64,000 nucleotides of DNA from Beroe forskalii (taxonomy: Eukaryota; Ctenophora; Nuda; Beroida; Beroidae), in contig WFMF01000256.1 of the NCBI GenBank assembly GCA_011033025.1, positions 62,001-126,000 on the forward strand, read 5' to 3'. The notes under the pieces were generated by a model that did not search any database, was not told where the DNA came from, and saw nothing but the letters and a program-made list of their open reading frames with translations. The position numbers and the translations under genes were made by a program. Below, piece after piece: positions 4,651 through 53,105 of the stretch (its first letter is position 1; every line of letters begins with the position of its first letter).

Positions 4651-6345
4651 GGTCGTATGAAAGTATACCAATGACCCCCTGCTGACCCCCTGCTGACCCC
4701 CTACTGACCCCCTGCTGACCCCCTACTGACCCCCTACTGACCCCCTGGTGAACCCCTACTGACCCTGGTGACCCCTGGTGAACCCTACTGACCCCCTACT
4801 GACCCCCCTGCTGACCTCCTATTGCCCCCCTGCTGGCCCCTACTGAACCCCTGGTGAACCCCTGGTGAACCCTACTGACCCCCTACTGACCGCTTCCTGA
4901 TCATAATTCTAACATATATCATGAATGTTTTTTAAAGCATCTAAAATAGCACTCAGCCTTATAATGACGCTTTATTGGTCAATTGCCACTCGATCAAGGC
5001 ACCCTAAACGCACGCTCAAAACATAAACGAGTCAGTTATATTTTTCATGTTCGTTATGTTATTCTGTTATTCAAGTCAGTCACGTTAGTCAAGTTATTCA
5101 AGTCATTCAAGTCAGTTCTGTCAGTCAGGTCGGTCAAGTTGGTCAAGTTAGTCAAGCCAAATTAGTCAAGCCACTCAAGTCAAGTTACTTTGATCAAGTC
5201 GCGTCAAGGTCAGTCATGTCAGTCATGTCAGTCATGTCAGTCATGTCAGTCATGTCAGTCATGTCAGTCATGTCAGTCATGGCAGTCATGTCAGTCATGT
5301 CAGGGCAGTCATGTCATGTCAGTCCGCTGGCGTCAGTCATGTCAGTCATGTCAGTCATGTCAGTCATGTCAGTCATGTCAGTCATGTCAGTCATGTCAGT
5401 CATGTCAGTCATGTCAGTCATGTCAGTCATGTCAGTCAAGTGAAGTTAGTTCGATTAAGTTATTCAAGTCAGCCAGGTCAGCCATACGGTAAAGTCAGAC
5501 AAGTCAATCATATCGGTCATGACTGACATGACTGACATGACTGACATGACTGACATGACTGACATGACTGATATGACTGACATGACTGACATGACTGACA
5601 TGACCCATGACGACATGACTGACATGACTGACATGACTGACATGACTGACATGACTGACATGACTGACATGACTGACATGACTGACACATGACTGACATG
5701 ACTGACATGACTGACATGACTGACATGACTGACATGACTGACATGACTATATGACTGACATGACTGACACATGACTGACATGACTGACATGACTGACATG
5801 ACATGACTTGATCAAAGTAACTTGACTTGAGTGGCTTGACTAATTTGGCTTGACTAACTTGACCAACTTGACCGACCTGACTGACAGAACTGAGTTGAAT
5901 TACTTGAATAACTTGACTAACGTGACTGTCCTGACTTATTTGGCTGACTTGAATAACAGAATAACATAACGAACATGAAAATATAACTGACCTGTTTATG
6001 TTTTGAGTGTGTTTAGGGTGCCTGATCGAGTGGCAATTGACCAATAAAGCGTCATTATAAGGCTGAGTGCTATTTTTAAATGCTTTTAAAAACATTCAAG
6101 GATATATGTTAGAATTATGATCAGGAAGTGGTCAGTAGGGGTTCACCAGGGGGTCACCAGGGGGTCAGTAGGGGGTCACCAGGGGGTCAAAGGGGGGTCA
6201 GCAGGGGGGTCAGTAGGGGCTCACCAGGGTGTCACCAGGGGCTGTAGGGGGTCCAGGGGTCAGTAGGGGGCCAGTAGGGGTCAGTAGGGGGTCAGCAGGG
6301 GGTCAGTAGGGGGTCAGCAGGGGGTCATTGGTATACTTTCAGACC
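4651..6345. mobile_element. Fold-back TIR element with 8-bp target duplication, copy A
   Basis: The element starts GGTCGTATGAAAGTATACC and ends with the inverse of GGTCTGAAAGTATACC. It is flanked by a perfect direct repeat CAAATACT (4643-4650 and 6346-6353). Both ends carry GACCCCCTRCT-type minisatellites of about 10 bp. The interior is a near-complete palindrome with arms of about 700-800 bp, including single-copy DNA (for example CGTTATGTTATTCTGTTATT near 5050, inverted near 5960), and the centre is an array of the 9-mer CATGTCAGT that flips to its reverse complement at about 5515. No transposase is present. Ends beginning GG with an 8-bp duplication suggest a Merlin- or hAT-like source; this is inference. 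Confidence 0.88.
5213..5802. repeat. 9-bp satellite, palindromic halves
   Basis: CATGTCAGT repeats in tandem at 5213-5440 and its reverse complement ACTGACATG at 5519-5802. Interruptions at about 5291-5335 and 5600-5612 are not symmetric, so the two arms have drifted separately. The apparent proteins of M-S-V or Q-S-C repeats are artefacts of this array. Confidence 0.9.
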
Positions 6346-14111: not shown

Positions 14112-14937
14112 GGTCGTATGAAAGTATACCAATGACCCCCTACTGACCCCCTGCTGACCCCCTACTGACCCCTGCTGACCCCCTACTGAACCCCTGCTGA
14201 ACCCCTGCTGACCCCCTGGTGAACCCCTGCTGACCCCTGGTGAACCCCCCTGCTGACCCCTAGTGACCCCTACTGACCCCTGCTGACCCCTCTGAACCCC
14301 TGCTGACCCCCGACAGACCCCCTGGTGAACCCCTACTGACCCCCTGGTGAACCCCTACTGACCACTTTCTGATCATTGTTTCAATTCTTATCATGAGTGA
14401 TTTTGAACATCTAAAATCACTTTAAATTTCACTTTGCCTTATCACAAAGTAATAAGGCAAATGACTTGTCGACTGATGCACCCTCAACACACCTAAATAC
14501 CATAAACGCACCCTATATGTTAAGTATGCTATGTTATTATTTTAGCTATATTAGTTGTGTTAGTTATGTTTGCCATAACTAACATAAATAACATGCCAAG
14601 CATCATGATAAGGCAAAGTGAACTTTAAAGTGCTTTTAGATGTTCAAAATCACTTATGATTAGAATTGAAACAATGATCAGAAAGTGGTCAGTAGGGGTT
14701 CAAATTAGGGGTCAGTAGGGGTTCAAGGTCAGTAGGGGGTCAGCAGGGGTTCAGTAGAGGGTCAGTAGAGGTCAGCAGGGGGTCAGTAGGGGTTCACCAG
14801 GGGGTCAGCAGGGGTTCACCAGGGGGTCAGTAGGGGGTCAGCAGGGGTTCAGTAGGGGGTCAGCAGGGGGTTAGTAGGGGGTCAGCAGGGGGTCAGTAGG
14901 GGGTCATTGGTATACTTTCATATGACCAATAACTGAT
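14112..14937. mobile_element. Fold-back TIR element with 8-bp target duplication, copy B
   Basis: Same family as 4651-6345: ends GGTCGTATGAAAGTATACC and inverse of GGTCATATGAAAGTATACC, with GACCCCCTGCT-type subterminal minisatellites on both sides. It is flanked by a perfect duplication AATAACTG (14104-14111 and 14938-14945). The interior is a shorter palindrome (ATTTTGAACATCTAAAATCA near 14390, inverted near 14640) without the 9-bp satellite. No transposase. It inserted 85 bp beyond the donor site of the Ras-like P-loop exon, inside its intron. Confidence 0.9.
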
Positions 14938-15029
14938 ATTTACTAGAATAGTTCCGCAGAGAAGAATATTATCCTTCAAATTCTTCATCAGTTGAAATTT
15001 GCAAATAAACAGAGCAACAAACCACAAAC

Positions 15030-15154
15030 CTGTCTTCAATTGTTGGGTCATAGTCTTCAACAAAATGGCGCTGTATGAACTGAATTGTTAGAGCACTCTT
15101 GCCAACTCCCCCACCTCCAAGGAGCACCAGCTTGTGGGACTCTATTTCTGTCAT
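15030..15154 (-). CDS. Ras-family small GTPase, first coding exon
   Basis: Starting at an ATG at 15154, 41 codons read [20 protein letters not shown] and continue ALTIQFIQ, then [11 protein letters not shown]. This is the N-terminal beta-1 strand, P-loop (G1, GxxxxGKS), helix 1 and the start of the effector loop of Ras/R-Ras/Rap GTPases. The exon ends GACAG followed by GTTTGT, splitting the expected Ser codon after D. An in-frame ATG 12 bases upstream is a possible alternative start, but MTE at the N-terminus is the Ras pattern. Ras proteins bind GTP at membranes and signal to Raf. G1 is intact here, but the downstream exons are disrupted or missing. Confidence 0.85.
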
Positions 15155-15403
15155 GAATTTGCTCAATAACTACATTCTATACTACTGTTTTAGTTATTTT
15201 AGGGATTGTTCACATATCACGTAATCACCAAAGGGGAGGGGGGTGATTCCGAATGATTACGTAACATGTTATTGTAACAAATACAACTACTGTAAACTTG
15301 ATTACGAGGGGGAGGGGGTTAAAATCGGCCAAAAATTGATTATGTGAACGATCCCTTATTGCATCAAGTGACAGGCAAATAAATACTGTATATAAAGAAA
15401 GAG

Positions 15404-22669: not shown

Positions 22670-22830
22670 AATTGTGGGGGGAGGGAACGAGTAAACACCC
22701 TTAACTTATATGGGGGGCGGCGAGTTAATATGCGAGTAAACATACAAACTTGTGGGGGGAGTAAACATACAAACTTGTGGGGGGAAAGAGGGGCGAGTAA
22801 ACATACAAACTTGTGGGACGAGGGACGAGG
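22670..22830 (-). repeat. Short tandem array at the end of the PH exon
   Basis: On the minus strand the unit CCCACAAGTTTGTATGTTTA occurs three times with a fourth altered copy, spaced about 25-32 bp. The first copy overlaps the probable end of the PH exon; each full copy offers the same candidate donor CACAA/GTTTGT. Confidence 0.6.
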
Positions 22831-22997
22831 GGGGCGGGTAGCCGGCGGGTGAGGGGGGCGTGTAGGGTTCGTTCTCGTCGTAGAGGATGCTGGCGAGGAG
22901 GAGCTTGTCCATCCACCGCTGCTTATCCTCCGGGCAGTCCGCTATGAAGTAGTAGGTGCGGGTGTTCTTGTGGTACGCCTTAAAGGCGTTCTTCTTC
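22811..22997 (-). CDS. cnk: CNK homologue, PH domain C-terminal half
   Basis: After the acceptor GGTCTCCTTAG the exon reads KKNAFKAYH, then TRTYYFIAD and DKQRWMDKLLLASI. These are the last beta strands and the C-terminal helix, with its invariant Trp, of a PH domain. The entry phase (one base completing the Lys codon) fits the exon at 23707-23923. The domain is followed by a proline-rich stretch YTPPSPAGYPPPSS. The end at 22811 (CCACAA/GTTTGT) is a guess: the open frame runs on to a stop at 22706 through a short tandem repeat, so this could be the last exon. PH domains bring CNK to the plasma membrane. Confidence 0.82.
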
Positions 22998-23706: not shown

Positions 23707-23923
23707 TTAATCTCGCTGGCAGTAGCAATGTTGAAGCTCGGCAGTGTGATGACGCCCAGAGCTGTGGTGTCTTGGGGTGTTTTGAAGTAGTACAAACAGA
23801 AACCCTTCAAAACGAACCACCTCCTCCGCCAGTTTCGGGGCGTTAGACCACTTCCTCCCAACTTCATTAGCCAGCCCTCGCACGCATTGGGGTACAGAGA
23901 CTTGCAGGATACGTTGGTATCCC
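23707..23923 (-). CDS. cnk: CNK homologue, PH domain N-terminal half
   Basis: Starting after CCTCAG at 23924, the exon reads DTNVSCKSLYPNACEGWLMK, then RNWRRRWFVLKGFCLYYF, TALGVITLPSF and ASEIK before the donor GTAAGT. This is beta strands 1-4 of a PH domain; the C-K...CEGWL signature and RWFVLK match the CNK family. The apparent longest open frame over this DNA is a different one and is not the coding frame. Entry phase 1 fits the exon at 26152, exit phase 2 fits 22997. The first 35 bases of the exon and the preceding acceptor are part of a 56-bp tandem repeat. Confidence 0.9.
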
Positions 23924-24256
23924 CTGAGGTTATAAGGGTTAGTTGGGGTACAGAGACTTGCAGGAAACGTTGGTATCCCCTGAGGTTGCAAGGGTTAGTT
24001 GGGGTACAGAGACTTGCAGGATACGTTGGTATCCCCTGAGGTTATGAGGGTTAGTTGTGGTATAGAGACTTGAAGGATACGTTGGTATCCCCTGAGGTTG
24101 CAAGGGTTAGTTGGGGTACAGAGACTTGCAGGATACGTTGGTATCCCCTGAGGTTATGAGGGTTAGTTGTGGTATAGACTCTTGAAGGATACGTTGGTAT
24201 CCCCTGAGGTTATAAGGGTTAGTTGGGGTACAGAGACTTGCAGGATACGTTGGTAA
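23889..24256 (-). repeat. 56-bp minisatellite repeating a 3' splice site
   Basis: About 6.5 copies of a 56-bp unit start at 23889, 23945, 24001, 24057, 24113, 24169 and 24225. On the minus strand each unit reads AACTAACCC (branch-point-like), a short AT stretch, CCTCAG (acceptor), then the first exonic bases GGGATACCAACGTATCC and GCAAGTCTCTGTACCCC. The copy nearest the exon is used to start the PH domain. All units keep the AG acceptor and nearly all keep the CTAAC word. Confidence 0.92.
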
Positions 24257-26703: not shown

Positions 26704-26834
26704 CTATAACTACAGTAGTGCAGATGCTCTCCTTGGAGACAGGGAAGTTCTTGAACTCGCCCACGTCCTCAGCAGGCGTTGTACGCCGGGTGGGAAGTGT
26801 CTTAGTGCTCAGCGTCGAATGGTTCGTTACTTCG
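26704..26834 (-). CDS. cnk: CNK homologue, linker exon
   Basis: After the strong acceptor CATCTTCCCCCGCAG the exon reads EVTNHSTLSTKTLPTRRTTP, then AEDVGEFKNFPVSKESIC and TTVVI, ending ATAG/GTGGGT. Entry phase 2 fits 30035 and exit phase 1 fits 26292. No domain recognised; composition is that of a flexible Ser/Thr-rich linker between PDZ and PH. A 21-bp tandem duplication CAGGAATTTAAAATGAATTT lies 10-50 bp upstream of the acceptor and offers two decoy AGs. Confidence 0.72.
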
Positions 26835-28768: not shown

Positions 28769-28933
28769 AATGAGAACATGCTGAGTAATGGATACAGCAA
28801 CCTGCAAAGAAAATGAAAACATTTGAGCCGCGAGGATGCCTTCCGAATTGTGAACTGTAAAATTATTGTAGGTATTTTATGCATCGGTATATTGTGCATT
28901 TGTGGTTATTCTTACTCTTATGTAACATGTTAG

Positions 28934-30075
28934 CTATGCTCACCTGTTAGCATTAGAATTGATGGAAGGTGTGGTAGCTATGCTCACCGGTTAGCATTAG
29001 AATTTATGGAAGGTGTGGTAGCTATGCTCACCTGTTAGCATTAGAATTGATGGAAGGTGTGGTAGATATGCTCACCTGTTAGCATTAGAATTGATGGAAG
29101 GTGTGGTAGCTATGCTCAACTGTTAGCATTATAATTGATGGAAGGTGTGGTAGAGACACTCACCCGTTAGCATTAGAATTGATGGAAGGTGTGGTAGCTA
29201 TGCTCACCTGTTAGCATTAGAATTGATGGAAGGTGTGGTAGCTATGCTCACCTGTTAGCATTAGAATTGATGGAAGGTGTGGTAGCTATGCTCACCTGTT
29301 AGCATTAGAATTGATGGAAGGTGTGGTAGCTATGCTCACCTGTTAGCATTAGAATTGATGGAAGGTGTGGTAGCTATGCTCACCTATTAGCATTAGAATT
29401 GATGGAAGGTGTGGTAGCTATGCTCACCTGTTAGCATTAGAATTGATGGAAGGTGTGGTAGAGACACTCACCCGTTAGCATTAGAATTGATGGAAGGTGT
29501 GGTAGCTATGCTCACCTGTTAGCATTAGAATTGTTGGAGGGTGTGGTAGATATGCTCACCTGTTAGCATTAGAATTGATGGAAGGTGTGGTAGCTATGCT
29601 CACCTGTTAGCATTAGAATTGATGGAGGGTGTGGTAGCTATGCTCACCTGTTAGCATTAGAATTGATGGAAGGTGTGGTAGCTATATACCTGTTAGCATT
29701 AGAATTGATGGAAGGTGTGGTAGAGACACTCACCCGTTAGCATTAGAATTGATGGAAGGTGTGGTAGCTATGCTCACCTGTTAGCATTAGAATTGATGGA
29801 AGGTGTGGTAGATATGCTCACCTGTTAGCATTAGAATTGATGGAAGGTGTGGTAGCTATGCTCACCTGTTAGCATTAGAATTGATGGAAGGTGTGGTACT
29901 CACCCGTTAGCATTAGAATTGATGGAGGGTGTGGTAGCTATGCTCACCTGTTAGCATTAGAATTGATGGAGGTGTGGTAGCTATGCTCACCTGTTAGCAT
30001 CAGAATTGATGGAGGGTGTGGTAGCTATGCTCACCTGTTAGCATTAGAATTGATGGAGGGTGTGGTAGAAATGCT
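28934..30075 (-). repeat. 44-bp minisatellite repeating a 5' splice site
   Basis: About 26 tandem copies of a 44-bp unit. On the minus strand each carries ACCCTCCATCAATTCTAATG, then CTAACAG/GTGAGCATAGC. The first copy is the real end of the CNK exon at 30035 and its donor; every later copy repeats the last ~30 exonic bases and the first ~12 intronic bases. A few units read CTAACGG/GTGAGTGTCTC instead. In the exon frame the unit has TGA right after the junction and is not a multiple of three, so use of a later donor would give a premature stop. Confidence 0.93.
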
Positions 30076-30415
30076 GTATTCTGAGACATTGTTTTCCTCG
30101 TCTGACAGCCCTGCATCGCACTCCTCATTACAGTTGTTATTCTCGTTGAGGTATTGCTCGCAATAAAGCGCAATGTTCTTCACTACATCCGGTTTTTCGG
30201 ACGTCATACTATTCCGGGGGGAAGTGATGCTGTTGCTGCGTGACGTAACGCTGTTTCCACGTGACGTAACGCTGTTACCACGCGACGTAACGCTGTTACC
30301 ACGCGACGTAACGCTGTTGTTAAGGGAGGAGATGAGGTGGCGCTGTTGGGGCGTGAGAGTGGAGTCCATGTCACGTGACTTGTCCAGGTGGTCGGGGGAG
30401 ATGTCGGGCATGCTC
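30035..30415 (-). CDS. cnk: CNK homologue, Ser/Thr-rich repeat linker exon
   Basis: Acceptor TTCCCTCAG, donor AACAG/GTGAGC; 381 nt with phase 2 at both ends. It encodes SMPDISPDHLDKSRDMDS, then four copies of a seven-residue repeat NSVTSRG with variants (SNSITSPRN), then an acidic stretch with Cys (NENNNCNEECDAGLSDEENN) and ISTTPSINSNAN. The heptad is a 21-bp DNA repeat (30235-30315). The Ser/Thr-Arg composition suggests phosphorylation sites; this is inference. No domain recognised. Reading on past the donor gives an immediate stop, which supports splicing here. Confidence 0.78.
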
Positions 30416-39475: not shown

Positions 39476-40004
39476 CTGGGCGAGGGAGATTGATAATGGA
39501 AATTGAGCTTTGACAAGTGAACAACAGTCCGGCGAACTTATAATTGAACGTTCCTCGTGTCAAGTCCAGTGTTTTGGGGAATCATACGCCAGTTCCCCGT
39601 TCCATTATCACCCAGTTAAAAGCCTCTTTTCCAGAGCCATCAAGAAGACATGTTACAAGTATCAGATGTTAATAGTCTGTCAGTAGCTACTTAGAGAAGC
39701 TCAAGAGAAGAGGAGGAGGAGGGTTCTGATATTCCGATATTATTCCTGCATAATACTGGGACTTGTACGGGTTTAGACATCGGAACTCGTACAAGTGATA
39801 TCCTCCAATACACACACGCACACTATCTCAGGCTTACGAACTTACGACTATCACATGAATCATATAGGAAGTCGCATCTACTCTGCAGCGAAATAAAATT
39901 GCAGATTTCATATTGCTGCGAGTTACGACATATTATATTATGCATCTTTTACCAAAAATCAAGGAAAGTTTGAAATAATCCGAAATCTTCACGCTGCCTG
40001 CCCT

Positions 40005-40183
40005 CGCTTACCCCACTAACCCGAGGTAAGAGGTTCGGGTCCCCGTATATCGCTTACCCCACTAACCCGAGGTAGAGGTTCGGGTCCCCGTATACCCCAC
40101 TAACCCGAGGTAAGGTTCGGGTCCCCCTATTTCGCTTACCCCACTAACCCGAGGTAGAGGTTCGGGTCCCCGTATATCTGGGA
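40005..40183 (-). repeat. 41-46 bp minisatellite repeating a 5' splice site
   Basis: Four copies. On the minus strand each reads GGGGACCCGAACCTCTACC, then TCGG/GTTAGTGG/GTAAGCG, holding two possible donors 9 nt apart in the same phase. The first copy is the end of the exon at 40565. Copies differ by small indels (CTCTACC, CTTACC, CTCTTACC). Confidence 0.85.
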
Positions 40184-40565
40184 GAGCCGCTTGGGGTTGT
40201 GGACGGTCTTGAAGTGCTGGTCCAGCTCGTTGCTGCTCTTGCACCGCTCCCGCAGCACGGAGTCCTTGGGCCGGGGCGGCTTCTTGGGCGTGTCCGTGGC
40301 GGGCTCCGAGTGGGTCCCTGACAGCTGCTGGAGCCGGGACCGGCCCTGCTTGGGGGTCAGGTACCCGGAAGCGAGGGGCGGGGCTGACGCCGTCACATGG
40401 GCAGGAGTCCGAGGGGGCGTGGGACGAGGGGGTGTGAGATGAGGGGGAGGAGGGGGAGGCGAGGGGGTCTTCTTCTTGTGAGAGGTGGTAGTGACGAACT
40501 ACCATGACAAGGCCGAAGGGCTGCGAGCGAATGAGTTCAACTACCTTCTTAATCTTCCAACCAAC
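40140..40565 (-). CDS. cnk: CNK homologue, PDZ end and proline-rich linker exon
   Basis: After CCTTTGCAG the exon reads VGWKIKKVVELIRSQPFGLV, the last helix and strand of the PDZ domain (compare VGWQLKNLV in CNK2). Further on, a different frame clearly codes: HKKKTPSPPPPPPHLTPPRP, SGYLTPKQGRSRLQQLSG, KKPPRPKDSVLRERCKSS and NELDQHFKTVHNPKRLSQ, with almost every third base G or C. The two frames differ by one base between about 40490 and 40525. The frame from the PDZ part is also open but gives an Ala/Pro/Arg-rich product of unlikely composition, although it fits the next exon's phase. A sequencing indel, or a pair, is the likely cause. PPRP motifs suggest SH3 binding. Donor at 40149 or 40140. 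Confidence 0.8.
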
Positions 40566-52448: not shown

Positions 52449-53105
52449 TCAGGACATCTGCGTCATGCGCGTCTCCTTCCAGCTCAGCAATGAGTTGTTG
52501 TTCATAGCTGTGTACCCCGGAACAGGTGGCGTGTCCGGGAACTGCTCAAGGAACCTGCCCAAACCGATCTTGAAGCTTTCAAGTGAAATCAGTTGTGAGA
52601 CGTCATGCGGCAAGATATTCCAAAGCTGAGCTGCTTTAACACCAAAAGAACTGTCATAGTCACTACGAACAGAAAGCTGGGCTTTGGTGTTTAACTGTGA
52701 AATGAGTGCCTTGATCCCAAGCCGAGGATGGTGCTTAAACTGCATTTCAAGGTCATTAGGGGCATGCCCGTTAATGATTTTCCAAACTTGGATGATGCAG
52801 TATCTTTCTCTTCGGCGTTGCAGTGACATTATTTTTAGTTTCTTGAGACGATCCCAATAGCTCATATCTCTGAGACCAGCTATCTTTCGGACGAAACATC
52901 GTTGAACGTTTTCTAACTTCTGGATGTCTATGATCTTGCTTGGGTTCCAAACAGGGCAGCAGTATTCTAGTCTTGAGCGCACCATGGACTTGTAAAGTGT
53001 GAGCATGACTACTGACGAACGATCACAGAAGGCACTGAGTACCCAGGATGCCATTTTTCGAGCTGCTTGAGAAGTCTGTTCAATATCTGTTCTTTCCTGA
53101 TTTTA
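52449..53105 (-). pseudogene. LINE reverse transcriptase C-terminal fragment
   Basis: The minus-strand frame reads DIEQTSQAARKMASWVLSAF, then LTLYKSMVRSRLEYCCPVWN, LENVQRCFVRKIAG, RRRERYCIIQVWKIINGHAP and SFKIGLGRFLEQFPDTPP. This is the thumb and C-terminal part of a CR1/Jockey-like RT (LYKSLVRPHLEYCCPVWNP is a hallmark). All catalytic motifs are missing through 5' truncation at about 53105, where a stop appears. It is a different family from the LINE at 15.4 kb. No poly-A tail was recognised. Confidence 0.88.

Follow-up and report, generated by a model that had tools for sequence, protein, structure and literature searches.

A tandem array of 26 exon–intron border units at a 5' splice site of a CNK-like gene in the ctenophore Beroe forskalii

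An exon of a CNK-like gene of Beroe forskalii ends at the first of 26 head-to-tail copies of its own exon–intron border. The array lies in a stretch of 64,000 nucleotides, hereafter the window (NCBI GenBank assembly GCA_011033025.1, contig WFMF01000256.1, positions 62,001 to 126,000 of the forward strand), and is a long representative of a type of repeat already described, the 'mirages' of amphioxus; several such repeats lie in the same gene, and the animal group is new for them within the literature searched. We consider it quite probable that a minisatellite with a unit straddling the border arose here by duplication, expanded, and was tolerated as a silent repeat. Twenty-six copies are beyond the reach of chance; whether their position matters is a separate question, which is addressed below together with the alternative explanations.

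Results

The array and its host gene

The array (Table 1) was delimited with TRF, which reported it at 28931-30075 with a period of 44, 26.2 copies, 92% matches and a score of 1989, and by splitting the sequence unit by unit, which gave 26 units, 23 of them of 44 bp and the remaining three of 43, 42 and 38 bp. On the minus strand, the commonest unit reads TACCACACCTTCCATCAATTCTAATGCTAACAG|GTGAGCATAGC, namely, 33 exonic and 11 intronic bases, and the order is therefore exon end, donor, 11 intron bases and then the last 33 exon bases again, repeated 26 times with small variations. The earlier note on this DNA, which had described about 26 tandem copies of a unit made of the last bases of a CNK exon and the first of the following intron, was right in both respects. 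Its placement of the exon at 30035-30415 (E5) also agrees with the acceptor, TTCCCTCAG/G, with the donor at 30035/30034, and with the reading frame: when E5 ends at donor 1, a single frame is open from within E4 to E10, that is, over seven exons with 0 stops. Translation through donors 2, 3 and 4, those that were tried, gave in each case the first stop after the codon spanning the border, in line with the claim that later donors add a stop.

With respect to the host, the PDZ residues (40802-40734 and from 40565 on) had as best PDB chains those of CNK2 (1.4e-10) and CNK (4.1e-7), using a query whose tail residues were not taken from the sequence. The PH domain formed by E9 and E10 gave a Pfam match of 6e-18, and the best PDB matches of this part were PLEKHA and IPCEF1 chains, with 0 CNK chains among 25. 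The CRIC profile had no match in this genome, and the control genomes gave no match either. With a PDZ domain closest to CNK and a PH domain present, the gene is classed by homology as CNK-like, as had been proposed.

Some additional features of the locus are worth recording. Within E4, at ~40470-40500 (minus strand), a frame switch of 1 nt separates the PDZ part (...GLVMVVR) from the proline-rich part (...KKKTPSP), and may represent an assembly indel, a micro-intron or a missed border. Inside E5, at 30229-30319 (minus strand), there is an in-frame coding repeat of 21 bp (NSVTSRG). A Ras-family GTPase exon is located downstream of CNK, at 14972-15169 (minus strand; Pfam Ras, 8.3e-11).

Table 1. 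Arrays, exons and intron described in this study. Positions are those of the window, except for the kinesin array.
Feature	Position	Strand	Description	Basis
Array at E5 donor	28933..30067	-	26 head-to-tail units	TRF, split by unit
Array across E4 donor	40004..40178	-	45-bp unit, 4 copies	TRF, sequence
Array across E9 acceptor	23887..24255	-	56-bp unit, 6.6 copies	TRF, sequence
Repeat adjoining presumed E10 donor (tentative)	22734..22785	-	25-bp repeat, 2.1 copies	TRF
Exon E4	40149..40565	-	C-terminal PDZ part followed by a proline-rich region	ends within second array
Exon E5	30035..30415	-	CNK-like, 381 bp, ends at first array donor	open frame, splice sites
Intron E5-E6	30034-26835	-	3200 bp
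Exon E6	26704..26834	-	next coding exon, acceptor CTTCCCCCGCAG|C	in phase if E5 ends at donor 1
Exon E9	23707..23923	-	PH domain, first half	Pfam PH, phase
Exon E10	22811..22997	-	PH domain, second half	Pfam PH, phase
Kinesin array	L072 1134-4006 (G000:C897)		56-bp unit or multiples, ~2.9 kb	TRF, among the rows listed

The donors of the array and the explanations they allow

The GT at the junction is kept in 25 of the 26 units. The earlier note had seen a CAG/GTGAGC donor in every copy, a claim that stands for the GT with this single exception, and for the exact motif in only 18 units; the other eight read CGG/GTGAGT (four units), CAG/GTATAT, TAG/GTGAGC, CCG/GTGAGC and CAG/TTGAGC (one unit each). 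The motif AG|GT is present in 20 units. Since 22 of the 26 donors score between 6.0 and 6.5, compared with a median of 2.8 for 62 donors called in other genes, the first donor is not singled out by its strength. The 23 full-length units fall into nine types. The CGG/GTGAGT variant occupies units 4, 8, 14 and 21; units 6-8 carry the series CATATC, CATAGC, CGGGTGAGT, which appears again at units 12-14, as block copying would predict.

The earlier note had suggested a switch or a buffer of redundant donors. If the inner donors were used at times, the array could act as a switch, with a stop and nonsense-mediated decay as the outcome, or as a backup for the first donor. The stop directly behind the exon via donors 2, 3 or 4 and the retention of GT would suit such a role. 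Low divergence alone, however, predicts this retention: full-length units differ at 29 of 1012 positions, and at the array's own mismatch rate 1.5 losses of GT are expected in 26 units, compared with the one observed. Moreover, donor positions vary more than exon-derived ones, with 1.0 and 0.27 mismatches per position among the 23 units, respectively, and 2.4 at other intronic positions, a contrast that is driven by a few shared variants. Neither the loss of GT nor the variability in these 23 units gives a sign of selection for keeping inner donors. The buffer of redundant donors thus loses its footing, we regard a switch or buffer as quite improbable, and the product of slippage or duplication is the best supported of the three options that had been offered.

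A different role for the inner sites would be that of tandem dual-specific sites, where each AG|GT serves both as acceptor and donor and the intron is removed stepwise, by recursive splicing. Wrong choices would then be healed, because donor 1 spliced to any later AG restores the same donor. The 20 units with AG|GT would provide such sites, with acceptor scores of 1.3 to 2.4, mostly 2.4 (the median of 62 called acceptors is 2.8), and a score of 6.5 for the commonest donor; tandem arrays of these sites are in use in human UBC, according to the passages of PMC10809524 drawn on here. Yet a PWM score close to the median is little proof, the motif shows no sign of selection, and the other junction arrays are not dual (CGG|GT at E4, CAG|GG at E9 and CAG|CT in kinesin), which makes this explanation unlikely. 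An assembly artefact, with one or a few units inflated by the assembler, also deserves consideration, as assemblers are well known to err in tandem arrays. The nine classes of units, the three other unit lengths, the block structure and the existence of like arrays on other contigs speak against it, and we hold it to be very improbable.

Other arrays across junctions of the same gene

Further junctions of the CNK gene are spanned by repeats (Table 1). The array at E4 has the donor CTCGG|GTTAGT, and its unit also holds a possible second donor, GTGGG|GTAAGC. The array at E9 has the acceptor AACCTCAG|GG, where this PH-domain exon encodes GDTNVSCKSLYPN. The tentative fourth case depends on the 3' end of E10, CACAA|GTTTGT, which is itself tentative.

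These cases were counted with a near-copy test, in which the window of -20/+20 around each of 16 called CNK splice sites had to be found again within 4 kb with at least 32 of 40 matches. The best near-copies had 40/40 matches for the E5 donor, 39/40 for the E4 donor, 39/40 for the E9 acceptor and 32/40 for the tentative E10 donor, so that 3/15 sites have a near-copy, or 4/16 when the last one is included. In a post hoc comparison with sites of myosin and kinesin genes (2/124), this amounts to a Fisher p of 0.009 for 3/15 and of 0.0015 for 4/16, and to a p of 0.051 when the E5 array is left out (2/14). The excess of junction arrays in CNK, which counts against our preferred explanation of a tolerated minisatellite, may hint at something specific to this locus.

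Arrays at junctions elsewhere in the genome

The sample for this comparison consisted of 198 myosin and kinesin matches (78 and 120), of which 142 entered; those lying within the sampled DNA yielded 62 automatically called junctions, some of them doubtful. Near-copies with at least 32/40 matches were found at 0/62 donors and 2/62 acceptors, both of them in kinesins; with at least 28/40, the counts are 1 and 3. The control positions gave 1/62 at exon -45, 4/62 at mid-intron and 1/62 at intron +45 (1, 4 and 2, respectively, at the lower threshold), and random positions had a near-copy at 32/40 in 7% of cases in the window and in 9% in the other DNA sampled. Over-representation at junctions was therefore not seen in the sampled genes (2/124 at junctions versus 5/124 at intron positions): a junction is about as likely to be hit by an array as an intronic position is, or less so. 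The suggestion that spanning a functional site takes the CNK array beyond an ordinary minisatellite holds only in part, as such arrays recur in this genome, are known from amphioxus, and are no commoner than intronic ones in this sample.

One of the two kinesin acceptors has 44 near-copies of its window at 28/40 or better. Its 56-bp unit includes TTTCAG and a coding stretch read as SLVDLAGSERA, and the copies fill most of the intron. The second kinesin acceptor has two degenerate upstream near-copies, the better one 303 bases away.

Tandem donors were also looked for with a genome-wide word search. For three CAGGTRAG words separated by gaps of 16-46, the search counted 1514+1107 matches, compared with 65+86 for the reversed pattern, and CAGGTAAGT gave 135+32 matches, compared with 1+8 when reversed. 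A better control, in which GT is changed to TG (CAGTGRAG), gave 584+545 matches, and its own reversal 571+460; with this control, the genome-wide enrichment was dropped. We claim no enrichment from these counts, because the places listed (~100 per search) lie in a few long arrays.

Six tandem-donor arrays from the first 100 listed places were inspected on their upstream sides. Three of them lie at donors and one at the acceptor of likely coding exons, and two have no clear placement. The first donor array belongs to a HECT gene (Pfam, 2e-5), the only one of the four placed cases that is backed by homology; the three others had no match in Pfam and were placed by open frame or phase. Among these, donor array L079 is preceded by an in-phase exon, donor array L076 was placed by its open frame alone, and L075, at an acceptor, is in phase with the preceding exon and had no match when compared with PDB. 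Two arrays of CAGGTGAGC, at G000:C110:1157953-1159446 and 1212863-1214200, are found ~55 kb apart; in both, words are often spaced by 27 or 54 bp, and the pattern of spacings is similar.

Origin of the array

The exon contains the stretch AGCATTTCTACC, and one unit downstream follows the first intron stretch, AGCATAGCTACC; after the last array donor, the intron sequence is AGCATAGCTAAC. Thus, AGCATTTCTACC and AGCATAGCTAAC/AGCATAGCTACC form an imperfect microhomology on both flanks of the duplicated segment. We propose a first tandem duplication between the exonic stretch AGCATTTCTACC and AGCATAGCTAAC, immediately downstream of the donor, which was probably mediated by this microhomology and duplicated 33 bases of exon and 11 of intron. 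The number of units would then have risen to about 26 by unequal exchange or slippage, in the course of which variant units were copied together in blocks. If the spliceosome picks the exon-proximal donor, as its proximity would allow, all other copies become intronic and the mRNA is unchanged, and the array would be a silent, tolerated by-product which extends the intron from its edge. The same process may have acted at other donors and acceptors of this genome.

The origin from a dispersed mobile element was considered and is unlikely. An 88-base query against the genome of 216 Mb gave 13 matches, all of them inside the array, and the query with exon E5 found no second genomic place, in searches that score the best candidates only.

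The position of the copy seam merits attention. Read by eye, the donor arrays have units made up largely of exon, and their seam coincides with the splice site or follows it closely. The automatic estimate of the exonic share gave 41 for E5 (shift 44), 8 for E4 (44), 19 for L074 (30), 12 for L076 (24) and 19 for L079 (36), a split that is thrown off by indels and unit variants and is clear for E5 only (41/44). Random breakpoints would not be expected to place the seam so close to the splice site or to include so little intron, a tendency that counts against the tolerated minisatellite. A more far-reaching possibility, to which we give a small chance, is that introns of this ctenophore lineage grow from their edges by the copying of splice sites, convergently with amphioxus, and that units with AG|GT make the arrays self-healing, given that the first donor is regenerated whenever it is joined to an AG further down the array. 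Were this the case, dozens of strong sites would coexist with an unchanged mRNA, and CNK would represent a natural 26-fold test of the use of the exon-proximal donor.

Comparison with known systems

The published cases are compared here as described in the passages of the cited papers on which we draw. In amphioxus, tandem repeats termed mirages run across exon-intron borders of Adh3, globins, troponin C and PGBD5; they are reported to leave the mRNA undisturbed and to be unstable in length, and have been proposed as a route to new introns (PMC3087553, PMC3902484). The B. forskalii arrays resemble those of Adh3, BflGb6/BflGb9, troponin C and PGBD5, in that both 5' and 3' borders are affected (the donors of E4 and E5, the acceptor of E9 and two kinesin acceptors) and in that AG/GT occurs in many units. 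The E5 unit holds exon end and intron start together with splice signals, in the proportions given above, and its 44 bp fall within the 10-72 bp of the Adh3 mirage unit. Unlike BflGb6, with 6 and 3 units in two haplotypes, the E5 array has 26 units and the kinesin array 44 near-copies; the host phylum also differs, and the array is known here from the sequence of one assembly. Among the matches listed, no mirage from a ctenophore was found in the open-licence literature. Two further observations on this genome suit a ctenophore: three glutamate-receptor segments matched first the chains named ML032222a iGluR and then 4zdm, which come from the ctenophores Mnemiopsis and Pleurobrachia, and the mitochondrial COX1, on a contig of 13,339 bases, is very divergent, with TGA inside its reading frame and AGA at conserved Arg positions.

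Other systems share part of these features. The tandem dual-specific sites of UBC and VCX3A (PMC10809524) also have a repeat unit that holds AG|GT; the UBC units are coding and are spliced in or out, whereas the CNK array is intronic if donor 1 is used, and reading through it leads to stops. Intron gain by tandem duplication, as in the Rogers model, the RdRp gene of potato and the 24-bp AGGT repeats of fission yeast (PMC4974935), is alike in that the duplication supplies extra splice signals, and the potato case crosses an intron-exon border; it is unlike the present case, where the array sits at the 5' end of an ordinary-looking 3.2-kb intron. Finally, variable tandem repeats of human segmental duplications include minisatellites at exon-intron borders, which reportedly change the transcripts and give rise to new introns (PMC2812944), whereas the CNK array is known from sequence alone.

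If splicing always takes the first of these roughly two dozen donors of nearly equal strength, the CNK array would be a natural test of exon-proximal choice by the spliceosome. Should arrays of this type prove general in ctenophores, a phenomenon reported from amphioxus would be phylogenetically wide, and a source of intron growth and of new splice sites. Gene predictors may misplace exon ends at loci of this kind.

Other features of the window

A minisatellite of 11/22 bp (TGACCCCCTRC), apparently of a single family, is found at 4672-4891 and 14133-14363, and in the opposite orientation at 6130-6327 and 14687-14906. A long open frame at 52452-53102 (minus strand) resembles the reverse transcriptase of non-LTR retrotransposons and may be its C-terminal part.
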